The notes beneath the pieces are model-generated. The model ran no database searches, was not told where the DNA came from, and was given only the letters and a program-made list of their open reading frames with translations. A DNA stretch of 64,000 nt, from contig SVTT01000002.1 in assembly GCA_015063625.1 (NCBI GenBank), positions 1 to 64,000 of the forward strand, in the 5' to 3' direction. Positions 7,000 to 45,152 of the stretch are shown here, piece by piece. The stretch is from Oscillospiraceae bacterium. GTDB taxonomy: Bacteria > Bacillota > Clostridia > Oscillospirales > CAG-272. Numbering within the stretch: position 1 is the stretch's first letter; every line of letters begins with the position of its first letter. The translations under genes and the position numbers were made by a program.

Positions 7000-7881
7000 A
7001 TGGGCTTTGAAGCGAGAAGTGATCTCGCAACCGAATGCGGCTGCGAGAACGAGAGAGAGGGGATCCGTGTCAGTACTGCCGATGCGGGGGGCTGTAAGCT
7101 CGTACGGGTGCAGATCAAAAGCGAGGATGCGGCAAGGAGGATCGGCAAGCCTTGCGGCAGATACGTGACGCTTGAATGCGGTCACGTTCACGATCTCTGT
7201 GAGCAGGAGCTCGCACAGGTGCGCCGTGTTCTTGCGGTGGAGCTCCGTGAAATGGCGGAGCGAATGACGGGAAAACGGATGGGGTCTGGCTTTTCGGTGC
7301 TGGTGGCAGGGCTCGGCAATGCCGAGATCACGCCCGATGCCGTAGGACCCGAAACCGTGCGGCGGCTCTCGGTCACGCGTCATTTGCGTGAGTACGATAC
7401 GGCGCTGTTTTCCACCGTGGGACTCTGCGAGATCGCAGCGATCGCCCCGGGGGTCCTGGGTCAGACGGGACTGGAAACGGTTGAGCTTGTCAGAGGCGCG
7501 GTCAGCAGTGCCAAGCCCGATCTCGTCGTGGCGGTGGATGCCCTGGCGGCACGCTCGACCGAGCGCCTCGCCGCCACAGTGCAGCTCTCCGATACGGGCA
7601 TCCAGCCGGGCTCGGGGATCGGAAACGGTCGCCGCGCGCTGAACCGAGAAACGGTCGGTGTGCCGGTCATGGCACTCGGGGTCCCCACGGTGGTGGAATC
7701 CTCCACGCTGGTTTACGATGCGCTGACAAAATTCGGGATCGACGAGCAACGGGAGGAGCTCCAACAGCTTTTTGAAGGAGGAAAGGGCTTCTTCGTTGCG
7801 CCGAAGGAGATCGATCTGCTCATACCGTCTGTGGGGATATTGCTTTCCTCTGCCATCGAAAAGGCGTTCACGGTGTCTTGA
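7000..7881 (+). CDS. gpr: GPR endopeptidase (germination/spore protease)
   Basis: A 293-residue aspartic-type endopeptidase that degrades small acid-soluble spore proteins at germination. Core family segments are VAGLGNAEITPDAVGP, the long glycine-rich GIQPGSGIGNGRRALN and GVPTVVE. It is made as a zymogen in the family, and the N-terminal ~15 residues (ending before SDLATE) would be the propeptide. The start is chosen by GGAGG eight bases before the ATG. It is somewhat shorter than the Bacillus enzyme (about 370 residues). A single gene with its own terminator; strong evidence for an endospore former. Confidence 0.93.
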   Translation: MGFEARSDLATECGCENEREGIRVSTADAGGCKLVRVQIKSEDAARRIGKPCGRYVTLECGHVHDLCEQELAQVRRVLAVELREMAERMTGKRMGSGFSVLVAGLGNAEITPDAVGPETVRRLSVTRHLREYDTALFSTVGLCEIAAIAPGVLGQTGLETVELVRGAVSSAKPDLVVAVDALAARSTERLAATVQLSDTGIQPGSGIGNGRRALNRETVGVPVMALGVPTVVESSTLVYDALTKFGIDEQREELQQLFEGGKGFFVAPKEIDLLIPSVGILLSSAIEKAFTVS

Positions 7882-7951: not shown

Positions 7952-9121
7952 TCAGCGCTTGAGCTTGGTGATGAAGGAGTCCATGCGAGAGAGCGCCTCC
8001 TCAATGTGCTTGATCGAATAGGCATAGGAGATGCGTGCGAAGCCCTCGCCAACGTCGCCAAAGGCGTTTCCGGGAACGATGGCACATTTGTATTCCTCCA
8101 GCAGACGGGCACAGAACTCGTCGCTTGAGAGCCCGAATCTGCCAATCTCGGGATAGATGTAAAAAGCGCCCTCGGGCTCAAAGGAATCAACGCCGATGCT
8201 CTTAAGACCGTTGTAGATATAGCGGCGGCGGCGGTCGTATTCCGCAACCATCATAGCGATGTCCTCATCGCCGTTCTTCAGCGCCTCAAGCGCGGCAAAC
8301 TGGCTGGTCGTGGGGGCGCACATGATGGCGTACTGGTGGATCTTCAGCATCTGCTCGGCAAGGGGGGCGGGGGCGGCAAGATAGCCCATACGCCAGCCTG
8401 TCATGGCATATGCCTTGGAGAAGCCGCTGGCAATGATGGTTCGCTCCCACATGCCCTCCAGAGAGGCGATCGAAACGTGCTGCCTGCCGTAGGTCATCTC
8501 GGCGTAGATCTCATCCGAGAGCACGAGAATGTTGGTGTCGCGCAGGACCTCGGCAATGCCCTCCAGCTCCTCCTCGGTCATAATGGCACCGGTGGGGTTG
8601 TTGGGATAGGGAAGCACGAGAAGCTTGGTGCGCGGCGTGATGGCGGCACGCAGCGCCTCGGGCGTCAGCTTGAAGCGGTCCTGTGCCTTGGTTTCGATGA
8701 TCACGGGCACACCGCCGGCAAGTGCGGCAATGGGCTCGTAGCAGACAAAGGAGGGGGTGGGAATAATGATCTCGTCACCCGGCTCGGTCACGGCGCGGAT
8801 GGCAAGGTCGATCGCCTCGCTGCCACCGACGGTGACCACAGTCTCCTCGGGCTTATAGGAAATGCGGAAGCGTCGCAGCAGATAACGCGAGATCTCCTCG
8901 CGCAGCTCGGTCATACCGGCGTTGGAGGTGTAGTAAGTCTTACCCTTTTGCAGGCTTTCGATGCCTGCCTCGCGGATGTGCCACGGCGTTACGAAATCGG
9001 GCTGACCCACCGTCAGACCGATCACATCTTTTCTGCCGTCAAGCAGATCGAAGAATTTTCGTATGCCCGATTTCTTCATGCTGACGACGGTTTTTGAAAG
9101 AACGGAAGAATAGTCGATCAT
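7952..9121 (-). CDS. PLP-dependent class I/II aminotransferase
   Basis: A 389-residue fold-type I aminotransferase, likely exchanging amino groups between an amino acid (aspartate or aromatic type) and 2-oxoglutarate. The PLP-binding lysine lies in SGFSKAYAMTGWRMGY (K at about 237), and PYPNNPTG and LVLSDEIYAEM are the cofactor-contacting motifs. Full length. Its start overlaps the stop of the upstream Lrp/AsnC-type regulator gene, so the two are translationally coupled; that pairing suggests amino-acid-responsive control. Exact substrate cannot be assigned. Confidence 0.92.
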   Translation of the reverse strand: MIDYSSVLSKTVVSMKKSGIRKFFDLLDGRKDVIGLTVGQPDFVTPWHIREAGIESLQKGKTYYTSNAGMTELREEISRYLLRRFRISYKPEETVVTVGGSEAIDLAIRAVTEPGDEIIIPTPSFVCYEPIAALAGGVPVIIETKAQDRFKLTPEALRAAITPRTKLLVLPYPNNPTGAIMTEEELEGIAEVLRDTNILVLSDEIYAEMTYGRQHVSIASLEGMWERTIIASGFSKAYAMTGWRMGYLAAPAPLAEQMLKIHQYAIMCAPTTSQFAALEALKNGDEDIAMMVAEYDRRRRYIYNGLKSIGVDSFEPEGAFYIYPEIGRFGLSSDEFCARLLEEYKCAIVPGNAFGDVGEGFARISYAYSIKHIEEALSRMDSFITKLKR

Positions 9122-9600
9122 CAGTTGCAGTTTCCTCTCTCGTCGATATCGACGATTCCGTAGATCACGCCCTTATCCTTGTATTTGCGCAGCACGAAGT
9201 GGGTGGCGGTAGAAACCACGTCTTCGATGGGCGCAAGCTTTTGAGCCACGAAATAGGCGACCTCCTTCATAGTCTTGCCCTCGATCTGCACGCAGAGGTC
9301 AAAGCCGCCCGACATCAGATAAAGGCTCTGCACCTCGGGGTAGTTGTAGATCTTTTCGGCAACGCGGTCAAAGCCGCGATCACGCTGGGGCGTGATCTTG
9401 ACCTCGATGATGGCGGAAACGTATTCTCGGTCGGTCTTATCCCAGTCGATGAGAGTCTTGTAGCCGAGGATCACGCCGTCCTTTTCATATCGGTCGATCA
9501 TTTTTTTGATGTCGCCTGTTTCCTTGCCGCACATTACGGCAAGCTGCTCGGGTGTGAGGGTGGCGTTGTCCTCCAGCAGTGTCAGCAGGTTGCGGTCCAT
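9121..9600 (-). CDS. Lrp/AsnC-family transcriptional regulator
   Basis: About 159 residues: an N-terminal winged helix (LTPEQLAVMCGKETGDIKKMIDRYEKDG) followed by the RAM/ligand-binding alpha/beta domain (VSAIIEVKITPQRD..., GGFDLCVQIEG). Such proteins form octamers and sense amino acids. The ORF is open further upstream, but the ATG at 9600 is preceded by AAGGAGG at ideal distance and gives the normal family start MDRNLLTLL. It begins 4 bp after the MutS-like gene and overlaps the aminotransferase start. Confidence 0.9.
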   Translation of the reverse strand: MDRNLLTLLEDNATLTPEQLAVMCGKETGDIKKMIDRYEKDGVILGYKTLIDWDKTDREYVSAIIEVKITPQRDRGFDRVAEKIYNYPEVQSLYLMSGGFDLCVQIEGKTMKEVAYFVAQKLAPIEDVVSTATHFVLRKYKDKGVIYGIVDIDERGNCN

Positions 9601-9604
9601 ATTG

Positions 9605-11242
9605 TTAAGCCTCCTTTTCGGCAGAAGTGTTTTTGTGGATCTTGGCAAGGATCGTATCGTAGGTCAGCCCGTACCTCGCGGCAATATCGCGCGCGTAGCT
9701 CTTTCCGTCGGGCTTGGCACGGTGGATGCGGAAGGAGCGCTTGCCCTCTCCCTCCATACCGGCAACCAGCGTGTCGATGGGTACACCGCCCTCGGGCGCG
9801 GTACGCGCGTTGATGCTCTCGATCTCTGCGGCAAGCTCGTGCAGATGCGTTGAGAAGATGGCGCGGCAGCCCGCACGGGAAAGACCTGCCAGCACCTCGG
9901 CGGCGATATAGGACGCCTCAAAGGAGCCGGTGGAGGAAAGCGACTCGTCAAGCAGCACAAGGCTTTGGTCGGTGACGAGGTCAAAGATCTCTCCGAGTCT
10001 GGCGCATTCCTCTCCGAGTCTGCCCTTGTCGATGGTGTCGTCGGCACCCGTGGGGAAGTGGGTAAAGATGGCGTCCGCAGGGCTGATGACCGCATCGGCG
10101 GCAGGCACGGGAAGCCCCAGCTGCATCATGGCAAGGGCAATGCCGACGGCGCAGGTCACGACCGATTTGCCGCCGCGATTGGGGCCCGTCAGCACATAGA
10201 TACCCGCCTTTTCGTCAAAGGAGATGTCGTTGGTCACCACCTCGTCCTCGATCTTCAGCGCAACGGCGGGATTGTAGAGCGCGGTGGCGCTGAAGGCGCG
10301 TTCCTCGGCGGGGGCAATGGTGGGAACGGCAAGTCTTCCTCCCTTGATGCCGAGAGCACGGATGAGATTGGTTCCCTTCACCAGAAATTCAAGCTCGGGC
10401 AGAAGATTCAGCAGAAAGTCGGTATTTTCAAGCACATAGGTCTGTACGATGCGCTTCCAGGAGCGAAGCGACTGACGGTAGACCTCGTTGATGGCGGAAT
10501 TAAAGGCAAGCGAGAGCGCAGTTTTCTGGTTGTCGGTCTGCTTTTTTCCAAAGGGGACCAGCTCTGCAATACAGGTGTAGGCGTCGCTTTTGAAGTTGAG
10601 GTGCAGGATCTTTTGCAGGGTGTCACCCGAGCGGAACGATTCGGGATTGATGGAGAGCACGCCTGCATCCTTGGGGCGCAGCTGCGCGTCAAGATTCACG
10701 CCGATGGTCACGCTCTTGATCTCGCGTACACGGTTGGTCAGCTCGGCAAGCTTGTCGTTCAGCTCGGCATAGTAGTCGCTCTCCACCAGCTCTGCGATGT
10801 GCGCAGCGAGGTGGCGGAAGGCGGCGCTCTTATAGTCGCTCTTGTGCGCGCAAAGACCGCTGTGAAGCACGTCGATGCTGGAGATATAAAGCTCGATCTC
10901 GGTCATGCTGGAGAGGTAATCGGCGGTATCTCCGCTGTCAGCCTCCAGACGGCGCAGCTCGGTGATGTCGTACAGCACGGGCAAGAGCTTGTTGAAGGTC
11001 TTGCCGATCTCGTCGAAGGCAAGCATATCCTCAAAGATCTCCTCGCGGTAGCGGATGACCTCGGGATCCTTGGTCACGAAATCGCAAAGGCGGGAGTTTT
11101 TAAGGGGCAGGACCTCGGAAAGTCCGAGCTCATCAAGGGTAAACTCGTCGATCAGCGGTGTGCATTCGCCCGAGAGGTGGGCGTGCTTGCTCTCGCCGTC
11201 GGGGTAGAGTAGGCTGAAGTCTTTCAAGTCAAGGTCTGGCAT
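9605..11242 (-). CDS. MutS-family ATPase lacking mismatch-recognition domains
   Basis: A 545-residue protein with the MutS clamp/lever helices and ABC-type ATPase: Walker A LTGPNRGGKSVV, Walker B LVLLDESLSSTGS and the THLHEL switch histidine. It is much shorter than MutS (about 850 residues), lacks the N-terminal mismatch-reading domain, and has no Smr nuclease domain, so it is neither MutS1 nor MutS2; it resembles stand-alone MutS-domain proteins of unknown role. First gene of an operon with the Lrp regulator and aminotransferase, behind a good promoter. Confidence 0.88.
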   Translation of the reverse strand: MPDLDLKDFSLLYPDGESKHAHLSGECTPLIDEFTLDELGLSEVLPLKNSRLCDFVTKDPEVIRYREEIFEDMLAFDEIGKTFNKLLPVLYDITELRRLEADSGDTADYLSSMTEIELYISSIDVLHSGLCAHKSDYKSAAFRHLAAHIAELVESDYYAELNDKLAELTNRVREIKSVTIGVNLDAQLRPKDAGVLSINPESFRSGDTLQKILHLNFKSDAYTCIAELVPFGKKQTDNQKTALSLAFNSAINEVYRQSLRSWKRIVQTYVLENTDFLLNLLPELEFLVKGTNLIRALGIKGGRLAVPTIAPAEERAFSATALYNPAVALKIEDEVVTNDISFDEKAGIYVLTGPNRGGKSVVTCAVGIALAMMQLGLPVPAADAVISPADAIFTHFPTGADDTIDKGRLGEECARLGEIFDLVTDQSLVLLDESLSSTGSFEASYIAAEVLAGLSRAGCRAIFSTHLHELAAEIESINARTAPEGGVPIDTLVAGMEGEGKRSFRIHRAKPDGKSYARDIAARYGLTYDTILAKIHKNTSAEKEA

Positions 11243-11289: not shown

Positions 11290-11318
11290 ATTATAACACA
11301 CACCGCGCGAAAAATCAA
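11290..11318 (-). promoter_or_regulatory. Sigma-A promoter for the MutS-like/Lrp/aminotransferase operon
   Basis: TTGATT and TATAAT on the minus strand with 17-bp spacing, about 50 bp upstream of the ATG. Confidence 0.75.
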
Positions 11319-11357: not shown

Positions 11358-11386
11358 TTGCGCGCGGTGGCGAAATGTGGTAAAAT
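11358..11386 (+). promoter_or_regulatory. Promoter for the uronate-isomerase-like gene
   Basis: TTGCGC and TAAAAT spaced 17 bp, 28 bp ahead of the ATG at 11415. Confidence 0.55.
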
Positions 11387-11414
11387 GAAGAAAAAAGAAA
11401 AGGGGGGCATCACG

Positions 11415-12698
11415 ATGCAAGCCGATCAACGGAAAAGCTTTTCGACCAAGACTGCCGAGCAACTGTGGCAGTCGCTCTCGGCGCTGCCCCTCGCGGACAC
11501 CGTACGTCCTCCCTTCGGCGGGCGTCCCTTTGCCGACCTTGCCGAGCTGTGGTTTCCCGATCCGCGCAAGGATCGGGCGATGCGTGCCTGCGGCGTGTCC
11601 GACGCGCTGATCGGATCGGGCTCGGATTTTGAACGCTGTGAGGCGTATCTTTCGATACTGCCTCGCCTCGTCGGTTCGCCCCTTTATGCTGCCGCCTGCT
11701 CGGATCTTCTGGCGCTCGGCTGCGATTGCTCGGTCGGGGAGGATGCGGAGCTGATCTGGCAGAGCAGCGCACACCGTCTGCGTGCGCATCCCCTCACGCC
11801 CGATATGCTGCTTGAAGAGGTTGGCGTGGCGCAGGCTCGCTTGGATCTCGCCGACCCGCCATCGACGGGCGAAGCTCGCCTTTGTCCCGTACTCGGGCTT
11901 GATCGGTTGCTTTGCTTGCAAAAGAGGGATCTTGCCGCATATCTTGAACGCCTGTCTGCAAGGACGGGGGAGGGGATCGACGATCTTGAAGGGCTTTCCC
12001 GTGCGATCTCTCTTGCCATCGGGCATCACGCGTCGTGCGGCGCCGCAGTGATCCTTGCCGATCTTTCGCATTATACGTGCTTTGAAAGGCCGAATCCCTA
12101 CCGCACCCGGCAGATCCTTGCCGCCGTCCTTGCCGGAGCATCCCCGAGCGAGGGAGATCGGGCACATTTCACGGCGCAGATGCTTCGTCTTGTGGGCAGA
12201 GAATGCCGTGCGCACGATATGCGCCTTCTTCTGCGTATCACGCGCGAATCCGATACCGTTGGACCACCTTTTTCGGTGGAGGCGGTAGGAAAGCTGCTTC
12301 ATTATCTCAATGAGTCGGGAGCGCTGCCCACCACGGCGCTGCTGACGGGTGTGTGCGATCTGCTCTCGGGAGTTCTGTCGCTGTGCAACGCTGCCCCGAG
12401 CGGAGAGGAGTCCCCGCGCGTGCTGCTTGCGCTTGAAGGGGAATACGCCGACGGTGAGGCGTGCGCCGAGGCGGTTTCTTTCTTGCTTCGCCATGACGCA
12501 GCTCCGTACCTGATCGGACTTATTTCGGATACAAAAAGTGCCTTTTCACATCCCGTTACATGGCTTTTTCGGCAAGAACTGTGTGAGCAGCTGGGTCGCT
12601 GGGCAGAGCAGATGTCCACTCCGCCACCCCTTGAGGTGCTGCTTGATACCGCCGAGCGCATCGCATATCGCGCTGCCGAGCAATTTTTCGGGCGCTGA
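11415..12698 (+). CDS. Uronate isomerase (UxaC)-like protein without metal-binding motifs; probable pseudoenzyme
   Basis: A 427-residue protein. From memory of the UxaC family, several segments follow glucuronate isomerase in order: ADLAELWF...RAMRACGV, VGSPLYAAACSDL, ILAAVLAGASPSE..FTAQMLRLVGRE, LLHYLNESGALPTTALL and, most convincingly, ISDTKSAFSHPVTWLFRQELCEQLG..WAEQ (compare the family's MLTDSRSFLSY..HEYFRR..). The active-site elements are missing: the DYHCHL metal motif is replaced by ADTVRPP (about residues 27-33), the CxASDHG-type motif by CGAAVILAD, and the catalytic LHIG by LLRIT. Length is close to the family's ~465. The start is set by AGGGGGG before the ATG; the ORF is open further upstream. 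No uronate pathway genes are nearby. Homology is moderately sure; function is unknown. Confidence 0.7.
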   Translation: MQADQRKSFSTKTAEQLWQSLSALPLADTVRPPFGGRPFADLAELWFPDPRKDRAMRACGVSDALIGSGSDFERCEAYLSILPRLVGSPLYAAACSDLLALGCDCSVGEDAELIWQSSAHRLRAHPLTPDMLLEEVGVAQARLDLADPPSTGEARLCPVLGLDRLLCLQKRDLAAYLERLSARTGEGIDDLEGLSRAISLAIGHHASCGAAVILADLSHYTCFERPNPYRTRQILAAVLAGASPSEGDRAHFTAQMLRLVGRECRAHDMRLLLRITRESDTVGPPFSVEAVGKLLHYLNESGALPTTALLTGVCDLLSGVLSLCNAAPSGEESPRVLLALEGEYADGEACAEAVSFLLRHDAAPYLIGLISDTKSAFSHPVTWLFRQELCEQLGRWAEQMSTPPPLEVLLDTAERIAYRAAEQFFGR

Positions 12699-13054: not shown

Positions 13055-13082
13055 GGCGTTGTGTCGGTGCCGACACAACGCC
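13055..13082 (-). terminator. Perfect hairpin downstream of truB
   Basis: GGCGTTGTGTCGG and its exact complement with a 2-nt loop, 21 bp beyond the truB stop. No strong U-tract follows, so termination is likely but not certain. The remaining 95 bp up to repeat A shows nothing else. Confidence 0.55.
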
Positions 13083-13102
13083 TATGCTCCGGGCGTTTTT
13101 CC

Positions 13103-14023
13103 TTATCCGTCGATATCGAATTGCTTGATCGCCTTGACAGCAAGTCCTTCCTCGTATTCTCTTACCTCGCCGAGCGCGAAAAAGCGTCCGTTCTCGCCGT
13201 AAAGGGTAAGCCGCGTGCCGGGCTCGTGCGAGAGCTTCAGCTTTTTGAGGTAGATCTCGCATCCGCTGCGGCAGAGGCGCTCGTAAAAGGAGGGGAGAGA
13301 AAGTCGTTCGAGGTCCGCAAAAAGGCTTTCCACGGGCAGGAGCAGGGCAAGGCGTGCTTCTGTGTCAAGCGCCTCCAGCCTCTCGAGCGTGTGGCAATCC
13401 CGAATCAGAAAATTGCCCGCCGCCGTACGCCGCAACGCCGCCATGGCACCGCCGCAGCCGAGCGCATTGCCGAGGTCGGCACAGACCGTGCGGATGTAGG
13501 TGCCCGATGAGCAATGAACCGAAAGGCGATAGCGGTCGGGCGCGTCGGTCCTCTCGGCGTTCAGCTCAAACAGCGTGATCTCACGGGGCTTCCGCTCGAT
13601 CTCCATCCCTGCACGGGCAAGGTCGACCAGCTTTTTTCCTCCCACCTTGAGGGCACTGTACATCGGCGGCGTTTGCAGCTGCCTGCCGATGCGGCTTCGG
13701 CAGAGCCCGATCACCTCTTTTACACTCGGTATGGCGGCACACGTGGTTAAAATACGGCCGCTTGTGTCCTCGGTGTCGGTGGTGATGCCAAGCTGCAGGA
13801 CCGCCTCGTAGCGCTTGTCGTGCGCCGTGAGGTATTCCGCCGCCTTGGCGGCTCGTCCTATGAGAAGGACCAGCACGCCGGTCGCCATCGGATCCAGCGT
13901 GCCTGTGTGACCCACGCGGCGCGTGCCGTAAAGGCGTCTGATCCGCGCGACCACGTCGTGCGAGGTCATCCCCGCAGGCTTGTCGATCAGTAAAACGCCC
14001 GAGGGCTCGGTTAGCTTTGACAT
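13103..14023 (-). CDS. truB: tRNA pseudouridine(55) synthase TruB
   Basis: A 306-residue enzyme converting U55 to pseudouridine in the tRNA T-loop. The catalytic aspartate is in GHTGTLDPMATGVL, preceded by GVLLIDKPAGMTSHDVV at the N-terminus; LQTPPMYSALKVGGK and CSSGTYIRTVCADLG are the RNA-binding signatures, and the C-terminal PUA-like region ends the protein. Full length. Usually paired with ribF or rbfA, but here it stands alone next to a nitroreductase gene. Confidence 0.97.
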   Translation of the reverse strand: MSKLTEPSGVLLIDKPAGMTSHDVVARIRRLYGTRRVGHTGTLDPMATGVLVLLIGRAAKAAEYLTAHDKRYEAVLQLGITTDTEDTSGRILTTCAAIPSVKEVIGLCRSRIGRQLQTPPMYSALKVGGKKLVDLARAGMEIERKPREITLFELNAERTDAPDRYRLSVHCSSGTYIRTVCADLGNALGCGGAMAALRRTAAGNFLIRDCHTLERLEALDTEARLALLLPVESLFADLERLSLPSFYERLCRSGCEIYLKKLKLSHEPGTRLTLYGENGRFFALGEVREYEEGLAVKAIKQFDIDG

Positions 14024-39677: not shown

Positions 39678-39757
39678 GATTAACGGATGTCTTGTGCAAA
39701 AGCGCGAAAGGAGTGAAAGGGTCAGAGATCGCACGGGAATCTCCCGTAAAATCCGGG

Positions 39758-39930
39758 TCATGATAGCGCCAGACCCCCGAGGAACGTGATATCGGCGGGT
39801 TGACGAGGAGAGAGGTTATCGAAATGTTCGGCGGGTGCCTCTCCGGTGTTGGGACACCGTGAACCACAGGTCAAATATGCGGGCAACCGCAAAACAACCC
39901 CTGTCCATCTCAAGCAAGGAGCAGACAAGA
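39758..39930 (+). ncRNA. glmS ribozyme (glucosamine-6-phosphate riboswitch)
   Basis: The core follows the glmS ribozyme consensus: AGCGCCAG at the cleavage site (cut expected between A39765 and G39766), GTTGACGAGGA, GGTTATCGAAATGTTCGGCGG and GTGCCTCTCC, followed by the 3' pseudoknot hairpins. It lies in the 5' UTR of glmS. In the known class, glucosamine-6-phosphate is the cofactor for self-cleavage, which destabilises the mRNA. Confidence 0.93.
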
Positions 39931-45041: not shown

Positions 45042-45067
45042 CAAGCGCTCTTCTCGCGTGATATAAT
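45038..45067 (+). promoter_or_regulatory. Sigma-A promoter for rplU-prp-rpmA
   Basis: TTGACA, 18 bp, TATAAT overlapping the end of the vanZ gene. Confidence 0.85.
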
Positions 45068-45069
45068 AA

Positions 45070-45152
45070 TTTGCCGCATGAAAAGGGCTCCCCAAGTATG
45101 CCGTTGGCATCGCCCCGTACAGCGAGTCTTAAAAGAAAGTGAGGTGCTTTTC
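45070..45152 (+). ncRNA. Probable L21 leader (ribosomal protein autoregulatory RNA)
   Basis: The 80-nt leader between the promoter and rplU has hairpins (GCCGTTGGC near 45100) and the position of the Firmicutes L21 leader, where L21 is thought to repress its own operon. Position and general form support it; a covariance search was not possible. Confidence 0.5.

Follow-up and report, generated by a model that had tools for sequence, protein, structure and literature searches.

The window, by which we mean the whole 64,000-nucleotide stretch analysed here (contig SVTT01000002.1 of the Oscillospiraceae bacterium assembly GCA_015063625.1, from an uncultured gut bacterium), carries a gene derived from uronate isomerase (UxaC) that stands on its own, with a divergent cluster of a mutS-like gene, an lrp gene and an aminotransferase gene on one side and the convergent truB gene on the other (Table 1). 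Its open reading frame runs from an ATG at 11415 to a stop codon at 12696-12698 and is preceded by a strong ribosome-binding site. The promoter has a spacer of 17 bp in the window, and DNA alignment across 11 genomes gives an extended -10 consensus of TnTGnTAnAAT. The aminotransferase gene probably shares an operon with the mutS-like gene and the gene of the Lrp/AsnC-type regulator. A germination protease gene conserved next to the locus suggests that the host is a spore former.

Table 1. Features of the UxaC-like locus and further elements, in window coordinates
Feature	Position	Strand	Evidence or remark
Germination protease (Peptidase_A25)	7000-7881	+	Pfam; conserved beside the locus
Class I/II aminotransferase	7952-9121	-	Pfam; synteny
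Lrp/AsnC-type regulator, overlaps mutS-like gene	9121-9648	-	Pfam; synteny
MutS domain V protein, divergent neighbour	9605-11242	-	Pfam; synteny conserved in the genus and beyond
Divergent promoter of mutS-like gene, TTGATT-17-TATAAT, extended TG	11290-11318	-	Conserved in relatives
-35 element TTGCGC of UxaC-like gene	11358-11363	+	CTTGC core invariant in 11 aligned orthologous upstream regions
-10 element TAAAAT, preceded by TGTGG (extended -10)	11381-11386	+	Near-invariant in 11 genomes
Ribosome-binding site GGGGGG	11402-11407	+	ATG 7 bases downstream
UxaC-derived gene, putative pseudoenzyme	11415-12698	+	427 aa; eroded TIM barrel outside the helical domain
Helical domain of UxaC-like protein (about residues 38-135)	11526-11819	+	
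Terminator-like hairpins between UxaC-like gene and truB	13055-13097		Consensus matches only
truB, right-hand boundary of conserved interval	13103-14023	-	Pfam; synteny
glmS ribozyme	39754-39916	+	69 bits; known element
L21 leader	45065-45139	+	Score barely over the gathering score

A preliminary description of this DNA had placed the encoded protein in the UxaC family, and both ancestry and predicted fold bear this out. A profile search, a check of the kind that had been proposed, returned a significant match to Pfam UxaC (PF02614) of 90.2 bits (E 1.7e-25), against a gathering score of 25, and among PDB sequences the UxaC structures 3iac (8.9e-17) and 1j5s (5.2e-8) were matched. An AlphaFold2 model (pLDDT 86.6, pTM 0.85) displays the TIM barrel with inserted helical domain that defines the UxaC fold, its best PDB fold matches being 3iac (TMq 0.82) and 1j5s (TMq 0.83). 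With 77.8 bits versus a cut-off of 387, the protein falls short of the NCBIfam isomerase equivalog PRK02925.

In UxaC, including BH0493, the HxH motif and an aspartate of strand 8 bind the metal and arginine residues bind the substrate. The HxH motif, DYHCH in canonical copies, is missing from the window protein in the alignment and occurs nowhere along its whole chain, and as the motif-less proteins of the genus that were tested contain no HxH either, metal ligands at shifted positions are ruled out. The other motifs have changed as well, FRPD to LGLD, DHG to LAD and TDSRSF to SDTKSA, and the QxHxGxxR segment is deleted, which leaves the protein without the pocket arginines and histidine of FRPD, HxGxxR and DSR. 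The FRPD arginine, the histidine and arginine of HxGxxR, the arginine of DSR and a WW pair are invariant in canonical copies and lost throughout the motif-less group. The strand-8 aspartate of TDSR is retained as D372, four residues past the invariant G368, and D163 is also kept. The uniform loss of ligands that had been claimed earlier thus stands for HxH, DHG and the HxGxxR segment, but not for this aspartate; and DHG, though indeed replaced, is a poor signature, being variable even among HxH-bearing copies, some of which have SDIALE instead. Judged from the alignment, the losses of diagnostic value are those of HxH, HxGxxR and the DSR arginine, and the window protein has presumably lost isomerase activity. 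Of the canonical-invariant columns, 11 of the 29 that fall within the helical domain are kept, as against 15 of the 93 outside it, and eight positions (R37, L82, L101, P129, L165, F173, L260 and V282) are newly conserved in the motif-less group.

We compared the locus in 21 genomes of the genus, which are drafts, many of them incomplete (all named contigs belong to MAGs). The interval from the mutS-like gene to truB is conserved in the genus, and holds a motif-less gene in 13 of the 21 genomes (G000, which is that of the window, G002, G003, G006, G009, G010, G012-G016, G019 and G020), a canonical uxaC in seven (G001, G004, G005, G007, G017, G018 and G008, the last judged on a C-terminal fragment beside truB) and nothing in one, G011, from which the UxaC gene has been deleted. 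The conserved motif-less group whose existence had been put forward as a check is therefore present, in orthologous position. Since canonical uxaC adjoins the mutS-like gene in other genera too, the canonical state is most simply taken as ancestral at the locus. The window gene is the resident uxaC of this mutS-like/uxaC/truB locus. The HxH-bearing UxaC that the same genome has elsewhere lies on a different branch of the family tree. The earlier designation as a paralogue is rejected as the main description, since relatives have canonical counterparts in this very interval. In some genomes (L124-L129, L043), namely active-side genomes and the motif-less G014, the mutS-like gene and uxaC are separated by an additional gene of roughly 270-284 aa that has the orientation of the mutS-like gene; in the window's genome the corresponding interval measures just 172 bases. 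The start of its product, LHTHxLYSFDG, points by sequence to a PHP-type phosphatase.

The HxH-bearing UxaC of the window's genome (G000:C12:2987-4351, 617.6 bits) adjoins uxuA (1929-2960). A separate HxH-bearing UxaC was found in 11 of the 13 motif-less genomes and in G011, so that a second UxaC accompanies 12 of the 14 motif-less or deleted loci versus two of the seven canonical ones (Fisher p 0.017, a test that ignores kinship). The two latter cases, G004 and G007, are of a divergent DFHNH type, and when this type is left out the value becomes p = 0.0003, again ignoring shared ancestry. The divergent UxaC-like family concerned, seen in L044 (G007:C31) and L045 (G004:C65), is marked by the motifs DFHNH, LRGD and TDSRSI. 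Five second copies that were placed in the tree fell on three separate branches, consistent with repeated gain of a second UxaC. In G012 (76% complete) a second UxaC was not found, and in G009 (88% complete) neither a second UxaC nor UxuA was found. Because G009 nevertheless keeps the motif-less gene, the retained role does not seem to need the uronate pathway.

Outside the genus, motif-less versions occupy the locus beside the mutS-like gene in G145, G244, G156 and G071 and beside lrp in G268 and G236, and are also found there in named herbivore-gut MAG contigs, for example L080, L081, L084 and L090; others lie away from it (G022, G239). Short relatives from other genera lack strand 1 at the N-terminus and keep the helical domain, at which their sequences begin. 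The model of the short relic L081 is locally confident (pLDDT 84.6) and matches UxaC poorly overall (TMq 0.42). As the G244 copy groups with that of its active sister G165 (support 96), its loss of the motifs is independent, so that at least one loss took place separately in other genera. Inside the genus, the protein and species trees conflict on the number of losses. A tree of six neighbouring genes places the motif-less G014 among active genomes (UFBoot 100), and a single origin of all motif-less copies of the genus is rejected by the species tree (p-AU 0.005) but not by the UxaC protein tree (p-AU 0.35), which in turn rejects a clade uniting the copy of G014 and the active ones that neighbour it (p-AU 0.002). 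Long-branch effects or recombination confined to this gene could cause the conflict. We favour an independent loss in G014, because its locus keeps the extra gene that was elsewhere observed in active-side genomes alone, over the alternative of gene-only recombination.

The motif-less gene evolves fast. Identity among motif-less copies is 22-88% (mean 34), versus 69-92% (mean 80) among the active copies at the locus, and in relatives the UxaC-like gene is 25-33% identical to that of the window when the neighbouring genes are mostly 60-91% identical. Such divergence, together with terminal erosion in some relatives (the copies of G016 and G002 terminate about 35 residues early) and the deletion in G011, would fit a redundant gene that decays slowly and neutrally. 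Against this stand the dN/dS values (Nei-Gojobori), which are 0.18-0.40 for motif-less pairs and 0.04-0.20 for active pairs, with dS high for many pairs; the bootstrap intervals of the four motif-less pairs tested all lie inside 0.13-0.43 and hence below 1. Moreover, none of the 13 motif-less reading frames contains an internal stop or frameshift, although 3-7 stops would on average have arisen had the same substitutions fallen at random, and the promoter and ribosome-binding site are conserved. For neighbours of the same motif-less pairs dN/dS is mostly 0.02-0.14, and purifying selection on the motif-less gene is thus relaxed but real, being clearly weaker than on its neighbours and active counterparts. 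The selection test that had been called for therefore agrees with the earlier view that the gene is retained and not decaying. A frameshifted, mis-called or decaying gene is rejected on these values, on the intact frames and on the conservation of the region around the start, and because purifying selection is seen, neutral decay is excluded as a general explanation and appears very unlikely to us, which does not by itself identify the function. Between G015 and G020 (L034:11605-12900 versus L037) the gene is a mosaic of alternating stretches that differ by 14-26% and by 1-5%, the directly flanking genes being mostly 0-8% divergent; the pattern may reflect recombination that brought in divergent alleles, or else a chimeric assembly.

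An inactive subunit or regulator in mixed oligomers with the genome's own active UxaC would agree with the second HxH-bearing copy in most motif-less genomes, and catalytically dead partner paralogues are known from other systems (PMC5201418, PMC3663545). However, G009 and G012 show no second UxaC, and second copies drawn from at least three branches are not expected to share one co-evolving interface, which makes such a role improbable. We regard it as equally improbable that the barrel has turned to another, metal-independent activity: its fold is predicted to be intact in the window protein and both D163 and D372 are kept, but the eight newly conserved positions provide no polar set at the strand ends, and relatives at the same locus drop strand 1 or the C-terminus. 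The sugar sensing that the preliminary description had offered as one possible role would have uronate bound in the ancestral pocket, for which UxaC ancestry and a barrel still predicted to fold could be adduced. It is disfavoured and, in our estimate, highly improbable, because the canonical-invariant residues of the pocket segments have gone along with the metal ligands across the motif-less group, and the gene also occurs in G009, a genome in which neither UxaC nor UxuA could be found.

The most economical role is that of a scaffold or protein-binding partner, because residues of the pocket segments are lost, no new conserved polar set is seen, canonical-invariant columns are kept more often in the helical domain and the short forms begin at this domain; pseudo-dihydroorotase (PMC7053772) provides a precedent. 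Our preferred reading, which the sequence comparisons make rather probable, is that the gene lost isomerase activity and has been kept by purifying selection as a non-catalytic protein, probably one that acts as a scaffold or binds other proteins. Acquisition of another UxaC elsewhere in the genome would have freed the copy at the locus from catalysis, and the residual function may be scaffolding or protein binding, exerted mostly through the helical domain and the shell of the barrel. The active enzyme may already have had this non-catalytic function alongside its catalytic one. Since the gene is retained in several lineages, an older secondary role fits at least as well as a new one. More tentatively, we consider it possible that the active UxaC encoded divergently to the mutS-like gene in this bacterial family has a second, non-catalytic function residing mainly in the helical domain, and that in several lineages another copy took over the isomerase reaction, which was lost at the locus, while the second function preserved the gene, even in forms of some 280 residues that lack strand 1. 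Candidate partners, by linkage alone, are the products of the divergent mutS-like/lrp/aminotransferase operon. The dispensability of the UxaC-like gene in G011 and the constraint on it, clearly weaker than that on its neighbours and active counterparts, argue against retention for such a function.

The locus offers a natural series of one gene in one place in active, inactive, shrunken and deleted states, in which one can test how an enzyme persists once its chemistry is gone and whether a concealed second function was there first. Annotation calls for caution, too, as a UxaC match at this locus alone does not equal uronate use. None of the open-access papers searched was seen to describe a pseudoenzyme derived from uronate isomerase. 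Canonical UxaC (PF02614; structures 3iac, 1j5s, 2q01 and BH0493) shares with the window protein its ancestry, the locus, the helical domain and the barrel fold, but the window protein is about 40 residues shorter and lacks HxH and most residues of the pocket segments. A more distant protein of the same structural group (TMq 0.79) is PDB 4i6v, amidohydrolase 2 of Planctomyces limnophilus, which has 16% identity and is not an orthologue. In Pseudomonas aeruginosa, ATCase activity requires an inactive pseudo-dihydroorotase of the amidohydrolase superfamily (PMC7053772), likewise a protein of this superfamily without activity that has a non-catalytic job, although it comes from another enzyme family and its partner is known. 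Trypanosome prozymes, inactive paralogues of AdoMetDC and of deoxyhypusine synthase, activate the active paralogue (PMC5201418, PMC3663545); they too are retained dead copies of metabolic enzymes, but some of the genomes studied here show no active copy.
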